64,000 nucleotides of DNA from Thermococcus sp. MAR1 (lineage in GTDB: Archaea > Methanobacteriota_B > Thermococci > Thermococcales > Thermococcaceae): positions 62,001-126,000 of the forward strand of contig NZ_SNUF01000001.1 in assembly GCF_012027305.1 (NCBI RefSeq), written 5' to 3'. Position 1 is the stretch's first letter. Each line of letters begins with the position of its first letter. The translations under genes were made by a program, and so were the position numbers. The notes beneath the pieces are model-generated. The model saw nothing but the letters and a program-made list of their open reading frames with translations. It was not told where the DNA came from and made no database searches. Of this stretch, positions 580-64,000 are shown piece by piece.

Positions 580-1873
580 ATCCCTTTATCTCTTCCACAT
601 CACCCTCAGTGAACTGTGGCATCATGTCGAGGTGAGCCCTCATCAGCTCGGCCATGGCCCTCAGCCCAGCCTCGGCGTCGTGGACGACCGGGTCGAGGAG
701 CACAGCTTTTATCACCTTCTCAACGTTTCCTTCTACCGCTGCCTCCGCCGATAACCGCTGTATCTCCGCCTGAACTCTGAGAGGGGCTAAAGCCTCCCGC
801 GGGAGCTCGACGCGGAGCGGCTTCACTCCCTTCGGCGAGACCTCCGCCGGAACCTCTACTATCGTGCCTTCAGGCAGGTCAATATAACTCCTGTTGGGGA
901 CGTTTATGGCCTCCTGGAGCTTTTCTCTGCCCTCAAGTCCCTCAACGACGTTCATGGCAACGTCTGGGAACTTGACGAATCGGTTGAAGGCGAACCTGGG
1001 GACGAGACCGCGGAGGAACAGCCTCAAAAGTCTCCTTACCTCATCCCCCTCCTTCCTGGTTCTCTCTATCCATTTAAGCCCCTTTTTCTCCTCCGGAATT
1101 AACGGCCAGGCGAAGCTCAGGTACTCCCCTATGTGGTTGTCGTCCGGCGAGGGGAAGAGGCCGTACGTCCGGTAGAGAAGCTGGCTCAAAGGCTCGAAGT
1201 CCGGCCTTTTCTTTAAGGCTTCGTCAAGCTGTGGATATGCGTCCTCGCCGTTAATGCGGAGCTCCTTTATCCAGGTGAAGTGGTTCAGGCCGCCGGCGAT
1301 GAGGCTTATCCCCCTCTCGTCGGCCTTCAGCAGGGGGGCCAGCATTTCCTTCCTCTCAAGGTAGCCCGTGCAGAGGCCGTAGACGTTTTTTAAGCTTGTA
1401 TAGTTCAGAACCGCGTAGGTCACCCTTGGCTCCGGGTTGGAGTAAATGAAGACCCGTGCGTCTCTGTTAACGTCCTCTACCCTTCTCGCTATTTCCAGAA
1501 CCAGCGGGACTACTCGTAGGGTATGGGCGAGTCCACCTAAACCACCGTTCTCCCCGAGAACCTGCCTGATGCCGTACCTATGGGGAATCTCGAAGTCCAG
1601 CCTCCAGCGTTCGTACCGCTCCTTCTCGACGGAGATGACCGCGTAGTCGACGCCGTAGTTTTCGAGTCCCTCGACGCTCTCAAGGGAAGTGACGGTGAAG
1701 CCTGCCTTGAAGGTCCTCTTTATCTTCTCCGCTAAGGCCGTTATTAACTTCCTCCGCTCGTCGTCAATCTCGATGAGGTATATCTCGGCGTTCTCCAGAA
1801 CCTCGCTCGTGGCTATCGTGTAGAGGCCCAGAGGGGTGAATATGCTTCCGGCTCCGATGAAGGCTACCCTCAT
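566..1873 (-). CDS. Glycoside hydrolase family 4 (NAD- and metal-dependent glycosidase)
   Basis: A 435-residue protein with an N-terminal Rossmann nucleotide-binding motif (GAGSIF, residues 7-12) and the GH4 features SNPEPR (~145-150), GLCTG (Cys168) and GLNHFTW (His198), which in the family ligate the catalytic divalent metal. GH4 enzymes hydrolyse glycosides, including phosphorylated and uronic ones, by a redox-elimination mechanism using NAD+. The exact sugar cannot be read from sequence. It is the last gene of a five-gene minus-strand operon (galK, GH57, MFS, PIG-L, GH4) and begins directly after the PIG-L stop codon. There is no PTS or obvious sugar phosphorylation other than GalK, so the substrate is probably an unphosphorylated intracellular glycoside. 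Length is normal for GH4. Confidence 0.85.
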   Translation of the reverse strand: MRVAFIGAGSIFTPLGLYTIATSEVLENAEIYLIEIDDERRKLITALAEKIKRTFKAGFTVTSLESVEGLENYGVDYAVISVEKERYERWRLDFEIPHRYGIRQVLGENGGLGGLAHTLRVVPLVLEIARRVEDVNRDARVFIYSNPEPRVTYAVLNYTSLKNVYGLCTGYLERKEMLAPLLKADERGISLIAGGLNHFTWIKELRINGEDAYPQLDEALKKRPDFEPLSQLLYRTYGLFPSPDDNHIGEYLSFAWPLIPEEKKGLKWIERTRKEGDEVRRLLRLFLRGLVPRFAFNRFVKFPDVAMNVVEGLEGREKLQEAINVPNRSYIDLPEGTIVEVPAEVSPKGVKPLRVELPREALAPLRVQAEIQRLSAEAAVEGNVEKVIKAVLLDPVVHDAEAGLRAMAELMRAHLDMMPQFTEGDVEEIKGFIHR

Positions 1874-2671
1874 TCACAGCACCCCCGCAAGCGGGTTTGC
1901 GTGGAAGAGAACCGTGGGGAGAATCTTCAGCCCCTCGCCGTATTTGAAGCCCGCTATCTCCCCGTAGAACCTGGCTATGCTCTTCACGAAGACCTCCCAC
2001 GAACTCCACTCGCTCCCGAACTGGCTCTTGTGGGCTTTCAAGGCCTTCAGCTTGAGCTTGAGGAAATCTCCTATGTCCTCAATGTAGTTTGGATTGTCCG
2101 TGTAGTAGAAGCCGAGTGACTTTACCTCCCAAGGCTCCCCCTCCCCGACGCTTGGAAGGGCGGAGAAGAAGGCCGCCTCCCCCGTTGAGAACCCCGCGTT
2201 CCTGTGGTCGGGATGGACATCGTAGGCCAGCCAGGGGTCGGGGGCGAGGACGAGGTGGGGCTTTTCCGAACGGATTATCCGCAGTATTTCATTCCTGAGG
2301 TTCTCGCTGTGGGGGAGCTTTGTATCAGGGTAATCGAGCCAGATGAGCTTTTTGACGCCTATTATCTCCGCCGCCTTCTCCTGCTCCTCTCTCCGGACTT
2401 CCTTCAGCTTCTCTGGCGGAATCTCCCTGCTTCCCGCCGAGCCGTCAGTCAGTGTGAGGTAGGTTATCTCCCTTCCCTCCCGCGAGAGCTTCGCCAGCGT
2501 TCCCCCAACGGCGAGCTCGCAGTCGTCAGGATGCGGCTGGACGCAGAGTATCCTTTCGACGCCCTCGAAGGGCCTTTCCACGTCGAAGCCCAGGGTTTCC
2601 TTCAAAAGCTCCCTGAACTCGCCGGGCGAAACCCCCCTGAGCTTAGCCCTGGCGAGGAGAAAAGGCTTCAA
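1874..2671 (-). CDS. PIG-L/LmbE-family deacetylase, diacetylchitobiose-deacetylase-like
   Basis: A 265-residue protein carrying the zinc-binding motif PHPDD near residue 46 and the second motif HPDH near residue 165, which together define PIG-L N-acetylglucosamine deacetylases. Size and sequence resemble the archaeal Dac enzymes of P. horikoshii and T. kodakarensis that remove the acetyl group from the non-reducing GlcNAc of diacetylchitobiose. No chitinase or glucosaminidase is nearby; instead the gene sits between an MFS carrier and a GH4 glycosidase in an operon headed by galactokinase, so an N-acetylgalactosamine-containing substrate is possible. The start overlaps the MFS stop by 4 bases (ATGA), showing translational coupling. 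The family call is firm, the substrate is inference. Confidence 0.85.
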   Translation of the reverse strand: MKPFLLARAKLRGVSPGEFRELLKETLGFDVERPFEGVERILCVQPHPDDCELAVGGTLAKLSREGREITYLTLTDGSAGSREIPPEKLKEVRREEQEKAAEIIGVKKLIWLDYPDTKLPHSENLRNEILRIIRSEKPHLVLAPDPWLAYDVHPDHRNAGFSTGEAAFFSALPSVGEGEPWEVKSLGFYYTDNPNYIEDIGDFLKLKLKALKAHKSQFGSEWSSWEVFVKSIARFYGEIAGFKYGEGLKILPTVLFHANPLAGVL

Positions 2672-4002
2672 GCTACATCACCCCCCAAAAGTTCCCAGGT
2701 ACGCTTCCTGAGTATCTCCCTGACCTCCTCCCGGTCCTTTGGATACTGATGCCTTATCCAGAACCACACGAGGGCGCAGAGCGTCCAGAAGAGCGAGCCT
2801 ATTATGAGTGTGTACTCGTAGGCCTGGGCGTTGGTGTAGCCCGCTTTTCTGAGCGCCTCAATTAGGAACCCGCCGAAGAGCGGGCCGAGGGCCTTTCCGA
2901 CGTTGTCTATGATGTTGAACACTCCAAAGACCGTCCCCCTGTCCTCGGGTAGGTTAACCTGGGAGATTATCGCCGTAACGTTCGGTCCCGCGAAGCTGAC
3001 GAGCTGGAGGAAGAGTATCGAGTAGACCGTCAGTGCGAGCCAGCCCTTGAGGGAGAGTTCCGGTGGGAGCGGGTAGACTATGACCCCAATCGCCGCTATC
3101 ATCCCGAGGAAGACTGCCATTCCCGTCACCAGCGCCCTGCCCCCGGGGCTTCTCCTCTCGAAGTAGTCTCCCACGTAGCCTCCGACGAGGGTTCCTACCA
3201 CGGTTGCTATTCCGAGGATCAGCAGAACGAAGGTTGCGGTTTCCTTTGCCATCCCCCTCGTCACTATGAGGAACGAGACGAGCCAGTACATCAGGACGCC
3301 CCAGGGGACGGTCCCGGCCAGGCCCTGGAGGAATATGAGGAGGTTCGTCTTCGTCCTGAAGGACTTTCTAACGGCCTCCCAGCTCAGCCGGTAGGTGTAC
3401 TCCACTCCCATCTCGATGAGCTTCCTGACCTCCTCCTCCCCGGCGCCCCTCTTGGGCTCCTCTGCTATAACGTAGAAGAGGGGCGCGAGAATGAAGTTTG
3501 GAACCGAGGCGAGGATGAAGGGGAGCCTCCAGCTCCCGATAAGGCCGGCCATTATCATGCCAAATAGGGTTCCGAAGCCGAAGGCGGTCTGTATGAAGGC
3601 GTAGCCCTTTCCGCGCTCCTCGCTTGGAAACATGTCCGCTATGAGGGAGTATCCTATCGGGATTATGGAGCCGACCCCAATCCCAGTGAAGAGCCTCATG
3701 AGGAGGAGCTCGTAGTAGCTGCTGACGAAGGCCGTCAGGAAGCAGGGTATCTCGCCGAGGAGAACGCCCACAACGAGGAGCTTCTTCCTCCCCTTGATGT
3801 CGGAGAGGAAACCCCAGACTATCGTTATTAGCGCGCTCGTTGCGACGAATATCGTCGAGACGAGCCCCATCTGGGTCTCGCTTATCCCGAACTCGGCCAT
3901 TATCTGCTGGTAGTTTGGCGGTAAAAGGTTCTGGTCGGCCATCAGGAAGGCCGCCATCAGGACGAGAAGGAGTATGGAGAGCTTATTCCTTAGGTTTCCC
4001 AT
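2668..4002 (-). CDS. MFS transporter (probable sugar/glycoside carrier)
   Basis: A 444-residue, strongly hydrophobic protein with about 12 predicted membrane segments and the major-facilitator motif A (GFLSDIKGRKK) in the loop between segments 2 and 3. Its start overlaps the end of the GH57 gene by 20 bases and its stop overlaps the PIG-L start, so it is co-transcribed with the glycosidases. By position it should import the di- or oligosaccharide handled by the GH57, PIG-L and GH4 enzymes. Thermococcales usually use ABC systems for oligosaccharides, so a secondary carrier in a glycosidase operon is notable. Substrate is inferred from context only. Confidence 0.85.
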   Translation of the reverse strand: MGNLRNKLSILLLVLMAAFLMADQNLLPPNYQQIMAEFGISETQMGLVSTIFVATSALITIVWGFLSDIKGRKKLLVVGVLLGEIPCFLTAFVSSYYELLLMRLFTGIGVGSIIPIGYSLIADMFPSEERGKGYAFIQTAFGFGTLFGMIMAGLIGSWRLPFILASVPNFILAPLFYVIAEEPKRGAGEEEVRKLIEMGVEYTYRLSWEAVRKSFRTKTNLLIFLQGLAGTVPWGVLMYWLVSFLIVTRGMAKETATFVLLILGIATVVGTLVGGYVGDYFERRSPGGRALVTGMAVFLGMIAAIGVIVYPLPPELSLKGWLALTVYSILFLQLVSFAGPNVTAIISQVNLPEDRGTVFGVFNIIDNVGKALGPLFGGFLIEALRKAGYTNAQAYEYTLIIGSLFWTLCALVWFWIRHQYPKDREEVREILRKRTWELLGGDVA

Positions 4003-58994: not shown

Positions 58995-61166
58995 ATGAAG
59001 GCAAAGGCTGCAATGGCCCTGCTGGTTGTCTTTTTAGTGGCTTTTTCTGTTGTTGCTAGCGGCTGCATTGGTGGAGGTAAGGGAGAGACCACTACCATCC
59101 CACAGAGCCCGACCACGACTTCTAGTGCTGGTGGACAGACCACCACTTCTCCAGCCGGAACTGGAACCTCAACAACACAGTCCCCCGCTCCCCCGGAGCT
59201 TAAGCCGGGAATAGCCGAGATGGACAACGTCTACGTCATAGTCACTGACAAAAGCGTTGTGATAGTCGGTCCGAAGGGCGCCAGCCCCACCGTGAACATC
59301 CCAAGTGGAAAGAAGGTCATAAGGGTTGAATACGAGGTTGACACTGCCAACACCCCGGACGTTAAGACTCTCATGGAACAGGGCCAGGGATTCGGTGCGA
59401 TTGACCCGGCTTTCTTCCGCGACGAGCACGTGGATGCCCTCATCATTGCGGCAAGGCGCCAGACTGACCCAACCATAAGAACCGAGCTCTTCAAGGCCGT
59501 TTACATACTCGGAAATAAGCTGGTTCCCGAGGTTATCCTCGGTCAGAACAGGCAACTCCGCGTTTACTGGAACTGGGTCAAGGGACGCTACTACCACCCG
59601 ACCCTTGCGGAGCGCTACGACCTCCTCAGCGAGGATCAGAACGCTCCCTCAGTCAAGATAGGTATCAAGGACTACAAGAACGATCCCGAGACCTACACCA
59701 TCGCCACCTTCGGCTGGCCGGAGAGCTTTGACCCGGCGATGACCTACGAGACCTTTGGATGGGAGATATGGCACGAGATAGGTGATACCCTCGTTACCTA
59801 CTGGAAGGAGAACACCGAGCAGGTCAGCCCCGATCTGGCCGTTGCCTGGGCCCACAACAAGGACGGTACTGAGTGGTACTTCCTAATCCGCGGTGGGGTA
59901 AAGGCCTACGACCCGTGGGACGACAAGACCTATCCGATCGACGCCACCGACGTGGCCTTCACGTTCCTCCGCGTTGAGAGGCTCGGCCACAGCGTCAGCT
60001 GGATGGTTGACGCCTTCATGGACGTCAACCACTCTTCAGCTCTCACCGAGGAGGAGTTCGACCAGTACCTCAAGGAGCACCCGCTCATAGCCGAGTTCAA
60101 CGGCAAGAGCACAACCGTGAAGAGCCTCGACGAGCTCAAGCAGTTCTTCGGCTACAGCGGTGACACCGCGGGAGTCTTCAAGCTCGTCCTCCCGGCGCCA
60201 TACGCCCCGGTCCTTGGAATACTCGCCGACCCGTTCCTCAGCGTCGTCCCAATGGAGTACCTTCTCGGTGACAAGTACCAGGAGGCCCTCCAGGCGAGCG
60301 ACAACGGCCACGACCCGAGCGCCTGGTGGAACTACCTAAGCGAGGGCAAGAGTGACCCGACCCACCAGCTTATGCACAACAAGCCCGTCGGAACCGGACC
60401 ATTCTACGTTGCGGACTACCAGAAGGACGCCTACATAGTCCTCGAGTACAACCCGCACTACTGGAACGCCACCGCCAACCCAGGCCACAGGAGGGTCATC
60501 TACATCATAAACAGCGACGCTATGGCGAGGATTAACATATTCAAGACCGGAACCGCGGACGTCGTTGCGATTCCGCCCGAGAAGATGGACACGGTTAAAG
60601 GCCTCGAGCTCAACGGATTCAAGTCAATCGTTCAGACGGACATCCTCCAGCCGATACTGACCTTCCTCGTCTTTAACACCCAGAGGGAACCCTTCAACGA
60701 CCCGCTCGTCAGGGAGGCACTCGCCTACGCCGTTCCGTACGACCAGATATCCAAGATCGTGTACCAGGGACTGCTCGAAAGGAACTACGGTCCGATACCG
60801 AAGCCGTGGCCCGGCTACACCGAGGAGGGCATAACCCAGTACAAGTACAACCTCGCCAAGGCCCAGCAGCTTCTCCAGCAGGCCGGTGTTGACCCGTCCA
60901 AGTACAAGATCGAGCTCATCTACAACGAGGGCAACAGTGCCCGTGAGAAGATAATGACCCTCCTCCAGAACGTCTGGAGCCAGCTCGGCTTCCAGGTCAC
61001 CGTCAACAGCTACAACTGGCCGACCTACCTCGACAAGACCGAGCACGGCGAGTACGACGTCTACGTCGTTGGATGGGTCCCGGACTACCTTGACTCCGAC
61101 AACTGGGTTGGCCCATTCCTCTACGGTGCCACCGAGTTCAAGAGCCTGGAGGTAACCGTGAGCTGA
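58995..61166 (+). CDS. oppA: Oligopeptide ABC transporter substrate-binding lipoprotein
   Basis: 723 residues from ATG 58995 (after GGGGTGG). A lipoprotein signal with Cys24 in VVASGCIGGG is followed by a Thr/Ser-rich linker (~31-65). An N-terminal segment (~138-210: DPAFFRDEHVDALI, DPTIRTELFKAVYILGNKLVPEVILGQNRQLRVY) resembles the usual C-terminal part of SBP_bac_5 proteins. The normal SBP_bac_5 start (YTIATFGWPESFDPAMTYETFG) comes only near 234, and the protein ends early (WVPDYLDSDNWVGPFLYG). This is what a circular permutation looks like. It binds peptides at the cell surface for the OppBC channel. Confidence 0.92.
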   Translation: MKAKAAMALLVVFLVAFSVVASGCIGGGKGETTTIPQSPTTTSSAGGQTTTSPAGTGTSTTQSPAPPELKPGIAEMDNVYVIVTDKSVVIVGPKGASPTVNIPSGKKVIRVEYEVDTANTPDVKTLMEQGQGFGAIDPAFFRDEHVDALIIAARRQTDPTIRTELFKAVYILGNKLVPEVILGQNRQLRVYWNWVKGRYYHPTLAERYDLLSEDQNAPSVKIGIKDYKNDPETYTIATFGWPESFDPAMTYETFGWEIWHEIGDTLVTYWKENTEQVSPDLAVAWAHNKDGTEWYFLIRGGVKAYDPWDDKTYPIDATDVAFTFLRVERLGHSVSWMVDAFMDVNHSSALTEEEFDQYLKEHPLIAEFNGKSTTVKSLDELKQFFGYSGDTAGVFKLVLPAPYAPVLGILADPFLSVVPMEYLLGDKYQEALQASDNGHDPSAWWNYLSEGKSDPTHQLMHNKPVGTGPFYVADYQKDAYIVLEYNPHYWNATANPGHRRVIYIINSDAMARINIFKTGTADVVAIPPEKMDTVKGLELNGFKSIVQTDILQPILTFLVFNTQREPFNDPLVREALAYAVPYDQISKIVYQGLLERNYGPIPKPWPGYTEEGITQYKYNLAKAQQLLQQAGVDPSKYKIELIYNEGNSAREKIMTLLQNVWSQLGFQVTVNSYNWPTYLDKTEHGEYDVYVVGWVPDYLDSDNWVGPFLYGATEFKSLEVTVS

Positions 61167-61198: not shown

Positions 61199-61244
61199 AG
61201 AGTTGTCCCACAGAGGCATTCCAAAGAGTGCAGGGGGGATCGAA

Positions 61245-62246
61245 TTGGCGAACCTGAGGAAGTTCCTTATAAGGAGGCTCCTCACCTTCGTACCAACCCT
61301 CATTGGAGTCACGCTCATAGTGTTTTTGATAGCGTACGTTATCCCCGCGGATGTTGCAAGGGCCTGGGCTGGGGGCGAGAAGGCGAGCCAGGCTTACATG
61401 GAGCAGATACGGAAGGAGTACCACCTCGACGAGCCCTGGTACGACCAGTACTGGTTTTTGATCAGCGGGCTTGCACGGAACAGTATAGTTGATCCGAGGA
61501 CGTCGAACTACGTCTTTGACGACATAAGCGAGAGGTTCCCCATAACGTTTGAGCTGGCGTTGATGGCGTTCTTCTTCATATTGATAATAGGCATCCCGCT
61601 CGGTATAATCTCTGCCCTAAAGCGCAACACTTGGGTGGATACTGTTATAAGGTTCTTTGCCCTCACGGGTGTCTCGATGCCGGTTTTCTGGCTGGGTTAT
61701 CTTCTCATCTACGTGTTCTTTGTTGAGGTGCACTGGATAACGCTGGCCGGCTTTCCAGCTCCCCCTGAGCATCAAATAACCCACATCCCAATGATAGATG
61801 CCCTGCTGACGGGCGACTTCGACACACTCAGCCAGCACATTCACCGGCTCTGGCTGCCCGGATTCACGCTTGGATTCATGGGCGCTGGTGTTCTGGCCAG
61901 GTTTGTTAGGAACAGCTTCCTTGAGGCAATAGGGAGCGATTACGTGGGCTTCCTAAAGGCCAAGGGTGTTCCGAAGAGGGGCATCTACCGCCACGCCCTC
62001 AAGAACGCGATGGTTCCCATAGTTACCGTCCTCGGCCTCCAGTTCGGCGGCCTCCTTGGGGGAACCCCCATCACCGAGACCGTCTTTGGCCTGCCCGGAA
62101 TGGGCTCGTACGTCATAGAGTCCATCAGAAACCTCGACTTCCCGGCAGTTGTTGCGATAACCATGGTCTTCGCCCTGATATTCCTCATAACGAACCTCGT
62201 CGTGGACATACTCTACGCGCTGATAGACCCGAGGGTGAGGTACTAG
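61245..62246 (+). CDS. oppB: Peptide ABC transporter permease OppB
   Basis: 333 residues from TTG 61245, preceded by GGGGGGATC; the frame goes up to 61203 but those residues are not permease-like. Six membrane segments, N-terminal RKFLIRRLLTFVPTLIGVTLIVF typical of DppB/OppB, and the EAA loop near residue 230 (NSFLEAIGSDYVGFLKAKGV). Forms the channel with OppC. Confidence 0.92.
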   Translation: MANLRKFLIRRLLTFVPTLIGVTLIVFLIAYVIPADVARAWAGGEKASQAYMEQIRKEYHLDEPWYDQYWFLISGLARNSIVDPRTSNYVFDDISERFPITFELALMAFFFILIIGIPLGIISALKRNTWVDTVIRFFALTGVSMPVFWLGYLLIYVFFVEVHWITLAGFPAPPEHQITHIPMIDALLTGDFDTLSQHIHRLWLPGFTLGFMGAGVLARFVRNSFLEAIGSDYVGFLKAKGVPKRGIYRHALKNAMVPIVTVLGLQFGGLLGGTPITETVFGLPGMGSYVIESIRNLDFPAVVAITMVFALIFLITNLVVDILYALIDPRVRY

Positions 62247-62258
62247 TGAGGTGGTAAA

Positions 62259-63434
62259 ATGGGGAGAGAAGAATACAAGAAGAACGTCCTCGATAGGCTC
62301 TCCGATGCCTTAGTTGAAGCCCTTGGTTCATTCATCAGTCTCTTCAGAAGGGACTGGAAAAGGAAGAACCGCTCCAAGATGGAAGAGTGGAAGCTCATGC
62401 TCTACGCCCTAAACCGCTCGCCCCCGGGACTTATAGGCTTCGTACTGGTGTTGATGTTTGTGTTCCTCGGCCTCTTCGGCCCCAGCTTAGCGCCCTGGAG
62501 TTATCGCTTCTTCCCGAGCAACTACAACTTTGAGACATACCTCGCTCCCCCGGGTTCAACTTACACCATGAACGTCACCGAACTCCAGGGGGATAACATA
62601 ATCCAGTACACCGCCACGATACACTACGTCCTCGGTGGGGACCACTACGGCAGGGATCTCGTCAGTCTCATCCTCTACGGCGCTAGGGTGTCTTTCGTAA
62701 TATCCATAATCGTTATCGCCTTGGGCGTTCCTTTGGGCATCATCCTGGGTTTGATAGCGGGCTACTATGGTGGCAAGGTGGACGAGCTTGTGATGCGCAT
62801 CACGGACGTTTTCCTCGCCTTCCCGCCGCTCATACTGGCCATAGCTTTCTCCGCCGTGCTCCCCCAGAGGCTTCAGAACTTCATCTCTGCCCATGAGACC
62901 GTTCAGAGCTTTGTGCTGTGGCTCTTCGCGCTCGAACCCCAGGACGCTGGCAACCTCGGAAAGCTCCTCGCGGTCATACTGGCGATGATAATCGTCTGGT
63001 GGCCGGCCTACGCAAGGATCACGCGCGGTTCAACTCTCACCGAGAGGGAGAACCTCTACGTTGAGGCGGCAAGGGCTATAGGTCTGAGCTCAAGAACGAT
63101 AATGTTCAAGCATATACTTCCCAACATCATAGGCCCGATACTCGTCTACATCACCCTCGACTTTGGTGGTGTCATCTTGATGGAGGCTGGCCTGAGCTTT
63201 CTCGGTCTGGGTGCAACGCCGCCCATAGCGGACTGGGGAAGGATAGTCTACGACGGCTCCCAGTACTTCCCGGAGAAGTGGTGGCTGGTCACGTTCTCGG
63301 GTTTCATGATCATGCTCGTTGCCCTCGGCTGGAACCTCCTCGGGGACACGATGAGGGACATCCTCGACCCGAAGACGAGGAGGAGCATAGAGTTCAAGGT
63401 CAAGAAGAGCGAGGAGGGTGAGAACAATGCCTGA
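62259..63434 (+). CDS. oppC: Peptide ABC transporter permease OppC
   Basis: 391 residues, longer than most OppC because of an extracellular loop with NITELQG-like segment before the DHYGRDLVSLILYGARVSFVISI motif (residues ~128-150). The EAA loop reads LYVEAARAIGLSSRTIMFKHILPNIIGP near 270. Ends overlap oppD by 8 bases. Partner of OppB. Confidence 0.92.
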   Translation: MGREEYKKNVLDRLSDALVEALGSFISLFRRDWKRKNRSKMEEWKLMLYALNRSPPGLIGFVLVLMFVFLGLFGPSLAPWSYRFFPSNYNFETYLAPPGSTYTMNVTELQGDNIIQYTATIHYVLGGDHYGRDLVSLILYGARVSFVISIIVIALGVPLGIILGLIAGYYGGKVDELVMRITDVFLAFPPLILAIAFSAVLPQRLQNFISAHETVQSFVLWLFALEPQDAGNLGKLLAVILAMIIVWWPAYARITRGSTLTERENLYVEAARAIGLSSRTIMFKHILPNIIGPILVYITLDFGGVILMEAGLSFLGLGATPPIADWGRIVYDGSQYFPEKWWLVTFSGFMIMLVALGWNLLGDTMRDILDPKTRRSIEFKVKKSEEGENNA

Positions 63435-64000
63435 GCCAATCCTTGAGGTTCGAGACCTGACTGTTCACTTTTACACCTACGCTGGAATAGTCAAGGCCAT
63501 CGAAAGGGTTTCCTTCGACGTTTACCGCGGTGAGACCTTTGCCCTCGTCGGGGAAACCGGTTGCGGAAAGAGCGTCACCTCGAGGGCATTAACCCAGCTC
63601 ATCGAGAGTCCGGGAAGAATCGTCGAGGGGAGCGTGATATACCATCGTGAGGATGGCTCTTCCGTGGACCTGCTGAAGCTTTCTCAGGAGGAGATACGGG
63701 ATATCCGAGGTAAAGAAATCGCCTATATCTTCCAAGACCCGCATGCCTCACTTGATCCCCTCTACACCGTTGGCTATCAGATAGCCGAGGCGATGGTCGT
63801 TCACAACACCGTGAAGGACTGGAAGGAGGGCTTCAGAAGGGCAGTAGACATACTCCGGCGCGTCCTAATCCCGGACCCGGAGAGCAGGGTGAAGAACTAT
63901 CCTCACGAGTTGAGCGGAGGAATGAAGCAGCGTGTTGTTATAGGAACCGGAGTGTCCAACAACCCAAAGATACTCATAGCAGACGAGCCAACCACAGCTC
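63427..64000 (+). CDS. oppD: Peptide ABC transporter ATPase OppD (cut by window end)
   Basis: The first 191 residues are visible. Walker A GETGCGKSV is near residue 42, the Q-loop in FQDPHASLDPL near 102, the signature LSGGMKQRVVIG near 162 and Walker B ILIADEPTTA at the edge. It energises the OppBC channel. The ATG overlaps oppC by 8 bases. The gene continues beyond base 64000. Confidence 0.95.
   Translation, partial: MPEPILEVRDLTVHFYTYAGIVKAIERVSFDVYRGETFALVGETGCGKSVTSRALTQLIESPGRIVEGSVIYHREDGSSVDLLKLSQEEIRDIRGKEIAYIFQDPHASLDPLYTVGYQIAEAMVVHNTVKDWKEGFRRAVDILRRVLIPDPESRVKNYPHELSGGMKQRVVIGTGVSNNPKILIADEPTTA

Follow-up and report, generated by a model that had tools for sequence, protein, structure and literature searches.

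Evidence for a circularly permuted SBP_bac_5 lipoprotein in Thermococcus and for repeated relocation of its termini

Introduction

Does the gene at the head of an opp-type operon in Thermococcus sp. MAR1 encode an OppA-type binding protein whose segments stand in a changed order, and if so, how and how often did the order change? The question was raised by an earlier note, made from the sequence alone, on a stretch of 64,000 nucleotides of contig NZ_SNUF01000001.1 (here called the window). It proposed that the 723-aa product of an open reading frame at 58995..61166 is circularly permuted, with a pattern typical of SBP_bac_5 C-termini lying ahead of the normal N-terminal start. The open reading frame, its coordinates and every motif quoted in that note are present in the sequence. 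As a rule, circular permutation is inferred from a comparison of distant homologues, at an age at which the event itself can no longer be traced.

Gene and operon setting

The gene for the binding protein is the first of the operon, and all features given here lie on the + strand. Its product opens with a signal peptide and the lipobox VASGC, ending at Cys24 (58995..59066), both read from the sequence and kept in homologues. A Thr/Ser/Pro-rich linker of residues 25-71 (59067..59207) follows, and its length varies among homologues. The stop codon lies at 61164-61166, and 36 bases downstream begins the open reading frame of an OppB-type permease (61203..62246), taken from a TTG start, with homology to neighbours beginning a few codons past that start. 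An OppC-type permease (62259..63434) and an OppD-type ATPase (63418..63999), which runs past the window end, come next, and an OppF-type ATPase follows outside the window. An OppB neighbour was present at 40 of the 42 SBP loci tested, all permutation types included.

Pfam SBP_bac_5 (PF00496) matched the protein with 234.4 bits against a gathering score of 32.4, over residues 277-712 only. The signal peptide, the lipobox and the Opp components mark the protein as exported, anchored and Opp-linked. Because of its family and its operon, the gene product is most likely the lipoprotein that binds the substrate for an Opp/Dpp-type ABC importer, with peptides as the most likely ligand; its function in transport is predicted from homology and gene context.

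Evidence for a permuted segment order

Eight canonical archaeal SBP_bac_5 proteins, among them a paralogue from the same genome, supplied the C-termini for a tail HMM. This HMM scored 36.7 bits (i-E 5e-10) on the native open reading frame, at residues ~143-204, and the best score among 2000 shuffles of the same protein was 7.0 bits. In the reverse direction, a profile of residues 72-232 and their relatives matched the C-terminus alone in all eight canonical proteins. Searched against the PDB, the profile of residues 72-232 found the C-terminus of OppA2 (2wok, residues 484-549 of 562; E 0.0025) as its best match, and the C-termini of 5u4o and DppA (5f1q) were also among the matches. Using the single sequence, phmmer aligned the protein collinearly with DppA 5f1q at residues 234-327 and 458-706, and placed residues 148-214 weakly onto the DppA C-terminus (469-535; i-E 330).

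In profile-profile comparison, the canonical profile aligned with the native profile of proteins ordered like the window protein (type 1a) in two pieces, canonical 1-450 with a score of 560 and canonical 451-525, found at the N-terminus, with a score of 95 (E 2e-11). After rotation of the type 1a profile, a single alignment covered canonical 1-525 with a score of 629. Proteins cut at another point (type 2, see below) gave two pieces (374 + 236) in native order and one alignment (602) after rotation. Against DppA 5f1q, the rotated profile fell into collinear blocks at 3-97, 165-193, 230-487 and 576-641, which map to 5f1q residues 30-125, 163-191, 203-450 and 468-533; blocks two and four, taken alone, are weak.

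In the canonical order a tail of ~80 residues comes after the Pfam core, whereas here the tail lies at residues 138-228, before the core. Relative to one canonical protein the two halves are swapped, and rotation restores collinearity. Given the tail HMM, the native and rotated profiles, the collinear DppA matches after rotation and the homologues of the same order described below, the best explanation, which taken as a whole we hold to be highly probable, is that the SBP_bac_5 fold is circularly permuted in the window protein.

The proposal of the earlier note was thus upheld by profile tests, rotation and homologues. It had located the displaced pattern at residues ~138-200, correctly as to placement but too narrowly, the tail reaching ~228. 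It had also held that the C-terminus stops where this piece should begin, and the protein indeed ends shortly past the motif GWVPDYLDSDNWVGPFLYG. Two observations were named as speaking against a permutation, namely a canonical tail supplied after residue 640 and a displaced piece that lacks an HMM match to SBP_bac_5 C-termini; no second tail copy was found after residue 640, and the alignment check against those C-termini gave the tail HMM match above.

A structure model computed from an alignment of three sequences, the window protein and two relatives, was of low confidence (pLDDT 44.7, pTM 0.30), and Foldseek with this model returned DppA/OppA matches at TM ~0.2, which are given no weight here. 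The bilobed fold would be expected to be conserved in the permuted protein.

Parts of the permuted chain

The permuted chain runs in the order U-T-N-M. Unit U (residues 72-137; 59208..59405) is a family-specific insertion that is continuous with the C-terminal strand in type 2 proteins, and it contains the equivalent of the cut site of a further type (1b), between strand VVIVGP and the next strand (59271..59303). Segment T (residues 138-228; 59406..59678) is the displaced canonical SBP_bac_5 C-terminus. It is joined to the canonical N-terminus at the T-N fusion junction (59676..59693), which is common to all permutants. Segment N (residues 233-492; 59691..60470), the canonical N-terminal part, is followed by the loop NPHYWNATANPGH (60465..60488), the cut site in the type 2 proteins of loci L040-L042 and of many Thermoproteota. 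Segment M (residues 497-714; 60483..61136), the canonical middle and late part, ends in GWVPDYLDSDNWVGPFLYG, and behind it lies the C-terminal strand (61137..61163; the end of TEFKSLEVTVS), which runs into U in type 2.

Since residues 76-137 of U follow the equivalent of the C-terminal strand unbroken in relatives cut elsewhere, U is, judged by these alignments, an insertion in a loop that in canonical proteins is just a short link, and it is within this loop that the window protein is opened. In the alignment with DppA the U loop falls at about 5f1q residues 446-468. Taken together with the limits of domain I of E. coli DppA, which we take to be 1-260 and 479-507, this position suggests that the U loop, and hence the new ends, would lie in lobe II. 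On this reading the anchor at the new N-terminus would exit from lobe II instead of lobe I. The earlier note had described a changed order of the strands that close lobe I; the changed segment order stands, but by homology to DppA the moved tail would also bring lobe-II helices along with the strand crossing to lobe I. The extra N-terminal unit of ~60 residues (~71-130) that it described is present as well, as part of the family-specific insertion rather than as a separate domain.

Distribution in Thermococcales

Matches at E <= 1e-80 were found in 63 of 94 Thermococcales genomes, mostly full length and in the order of the window protein. The inspection of Thermococcales homologues suggested earlier thus yielded ~60 genomes in which the type 1a order is fixed, so that a sequencing or assembly artefact is ruled out.

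A different order was found in three genomes of one Thermococcales genus (g11), which we guess is probably Palaeococcus. In the residue numbering of the window protein these orthologues read [497-722][76-492], in one open reading frame of ~714-720 aa. BLASTP aligned residues 76-491 of the window protein to 292-706 of the g11 type 2 orthologue P0002 at 73% identity and residues 498-720 to 57-279 at 75%, so that the proteins are 72-75% identical. The Pfam SBP_bac_5 match is itself split in type 2, with profile positions 149-364 falling at residues 58-271. Between the window and a g11 genome (G062) the flanking genes are collinear over ~20 kb and the SBP gene alone is permuted. Because both flanks are collinear and only this gene is rotated, the comparison indicates that the g11 re-permutation, which took the ends out of the U loop and into the NPYYW loop, occurred in place at its operon position.

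Several other loci deserve mention. In G007 (L052) the orthologue lies in two overlapping frames (1777-3261 and 3012-3863) with a break in the N segment, which may reflect a frameshift, decay or a sequencing error. Degraded orthologues with several frame breaks were seen in G075 (L050; 2456-3762) and G102 (L051; 1613-2989), and it seems that some Thermococcales are losing or have lost the SBP gene. Other Thermococcus genomes (L026-L035 and L047, from G033, G019 and others) carry a second type 1a group, ~53% identical and with its own OppB neighbour, which may be either a replacement or a paralogue of the window system. A second type 1a copy in G068 (genus g12) spans the start of a circular record (C1:1860551-1861318 and 2-1360).

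Relatives in Thermoproteota and the three cut types

A profile of U and T together found strong relatives in ~30 of 349 genomes of another archaeal phylum, which we took as Thermoproteota. These genomes carry the type 1a and type 2 orders and a third cut as well. In type 1a the cut lies between the C-terminal strand/helix and the first strand of U. In type 1b the halves of U stand at opposite ends of the chain, the cut falling between two U strands. In type 2 the chain is cut in a loop, between NPYYWN..YG.KP and H..VIY. Viewed as a closed ring, the chain therefore has its termini at one of three loops: the T-N boundary (canonical), the U loop (types 1a and 1b) or the NPYYW loop (type 2). The anchor and linker stand at the new N-terminus in all permutants examined.

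Among the members found, none combined U with canonical ends. No relatives were matched in 152 + 23 genomes of two other archaeal phyla, searched without a positive control, and none in a scan of viral contigs. Some canonical SBP_bac_5 proteins were seen to carry added N-terminal units of other kinds: the 802-aa protein of L124 (G381) has, by eye, two apparent PKD-like repeats at residues ~60-265, between anchor and binding domain, and that of L122 (G516) has an N-terminal CARDB domain at residues 62-130.

Relocation of the termini and its origin

A tree was built from rotated sequences with canonical SBPs as outgroups. All permutants form one clade with support of 100/100. Within it type 1b is basal, followed by the type 2 clades and then type 1a; support for this rooting of the permutants is weak (81/64), and long branches are involved. 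The g11 type 2 proteins fall inside type 1a, a nesting that is strongly supported. On this tree at least four relocations of the termini are needed. A single type 2 origin was rejected (AU p = 0.00031), as were a type 1a clade excluding g11 (p 1e-4) and Thermococcales type 1a alone (p 5.5e-7). In the OppB tree, which has little resolution, g11 stays within Thermococcales, and this tree disagrees moderately with the SBP tree over the nearest thermoproteal group; for this reason the plurality of changes appears surer than their exact number and direction. The permutation is judged to be old, since the family spans Thermococcaceae and part of the searched Thermoproteota.

We think it likely that, starting from the canonical order, the termini moved at least four times among the three loops, with the same cut made twice independently and one orthologue re-permuted within its operon. 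In the first permutation T, the canonical C-terminus, became joined to N, the canonical N-terminal part, and the chain was opened anew in the loop bearing U, probably in lobe II. The new N-terminus carries the signal peptide, the lipid anchor and the Thr-rich linker, so that the anchor exits from a non-canonical loop; further permutations most likely followed. The two main models for such events are permutation by duplication and fission/fusion (PMC3320104). We lean towards the former as the most likely route, in which tandem duplication of the gene would be followed by in-frame fusion and loss of redundant ends, since it accounts for both the common T-N junction and the in-place event. Among the fetched loci no tandem-duplicate intermediate was found, and neither a second tail nor remnants of other segments turned up in their surroundings. 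A 1297-aa frame in G457 was considered as a duplicated gene and rejected, as it reads through an N-gap/assembly gap into an unrelated gene.

What might have driven the relocation? The permutation may have been selected because it shifted the anchor to another face or lobe and oriented the protein better towards the permease on a surface without an outer membrane. The surface anchor and linker are kept at the new N-terminus throughout the permutants examined, and the same idea has been put forward for TpMglB-2 (PMC4990184). Repeated switching between two cut points, however, argues that the anchor position is not critical, as does the fact that the same genome also carries lipoprotein paralogues of canonical order (L002), and we regard selection of this kind as rather unlikely.

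Less probable still is that the order changed only once and that lineages each kept a different window of one ancient tandem duplicate. The shared T-N junction would fit this, as would the end YG[YF]KP of the Thermococcales type 2 proteins, which resembles the type 2 end in Thermoproteota; yet the YG..KP loop also occurs inside Thermoproteota type 1a proteins. Moreover, the g11 type 2 proteins are nested within type 1a and the tree tests reject one common origin of type 2, the genomes examined hold no doubled gene or relic of one, and such a gene would need to have persisted across two phyla.

Two further explanations we consider very improbable. Acquisition by g11 of a type 2 gene from Thermoproteota through horizontal transfer would explain the same order and the similar C-terminal end, but both pieces of the g11 protein are 72-75% identical to the window protein, against ~60% (N) and 46% (M) between the latter and the closest thermoproteal type 2 proteins, local gene order is conserved, and the tree, with g11 nested in the Thermococcales clade, disfavours it. 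An added N-terminal domain that does no more than look like an SBP C-terminus, the true one being degenerate or lost, would suit the very weak single-sequence tail match and the limited Pfam span, but is refuted at the level of sequence: profile tests tie residues 138-228 to canonical C-termini, no other tail exists anywhere in the protein, and in type 2 orthologues this tail comes immediately behind the M segment and U, in a canonical-like place.

Comparison with known systems and implications

The window protein resembles known SBP_bac_5 proteins (E. coli DppA 1dpp, OppA2 2wok, OppA) in sequence family, operon partners and the homology of all its segments, and differs from them in segment order, in the addition of U in a lobe-II loop and in an anchor at another loop. 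A circularly permuted glucose-binding lipoprotein is known from Treponema pallidum (TpMglB-2, Tp0684; PMC4990184). It too is a natural permutant, a binding lipoprotein of an ABC importer, and anchored at its new N-terminus. It belongs, however, to the unrelated Type I/Cluster B sugar-binding class, whereas the best families for the window protein were SBP_bac_5/DppA, and it is one permutant whose permuted portion is, according to its authors, poorly conserved in sequence (PMC4990184). The family described here shows clear homology of the moved part and three cut points. Natural permutants with several orders are known among DNA methyltransferases and swaposins (PMC3320104), which share with this family the presence of several permutants and the model of permutation by duplication. 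Here, in contrast, the relocation is between orthologues at one collinear locus, and the protein is a large, presumably bilobed, binding protein.

Members of the family may already have been seen in proteomes. In a secretome of P. furiosus, PF1408, a 79.4 kDa lipoprotein, was detected with 52% coverage (PMC3824201). Its size and lipoprotein type would fit the permuted family rather than canonical SBPs of ~520-570 aa, which makes it a candidate member; the entry in that study annotates it simply as a 'putative dipeptide-binding protein' and does not mention a permutation (PMC3824201). In T. kodakarensis, the peptide-transporter SBP YP_184217 appears in a stationary-phase proteome with a value of -4.88 (PMC4870337). 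A search of the open-access literature found no description of permuted OppA-type proteins.

Current annotation of these proteins is misleading, as the first ~230 residues are left unassigned and the Pfam core is split in type 2. Syntenic orthologues that are 72-75% identical and differ by a permutation make the path and the selective effect of the change directly testable, and a wider family with three cut points adds to this. The family also indicates that a binding protein of an ABC importer can have its anchor relocated to different places on the fold.
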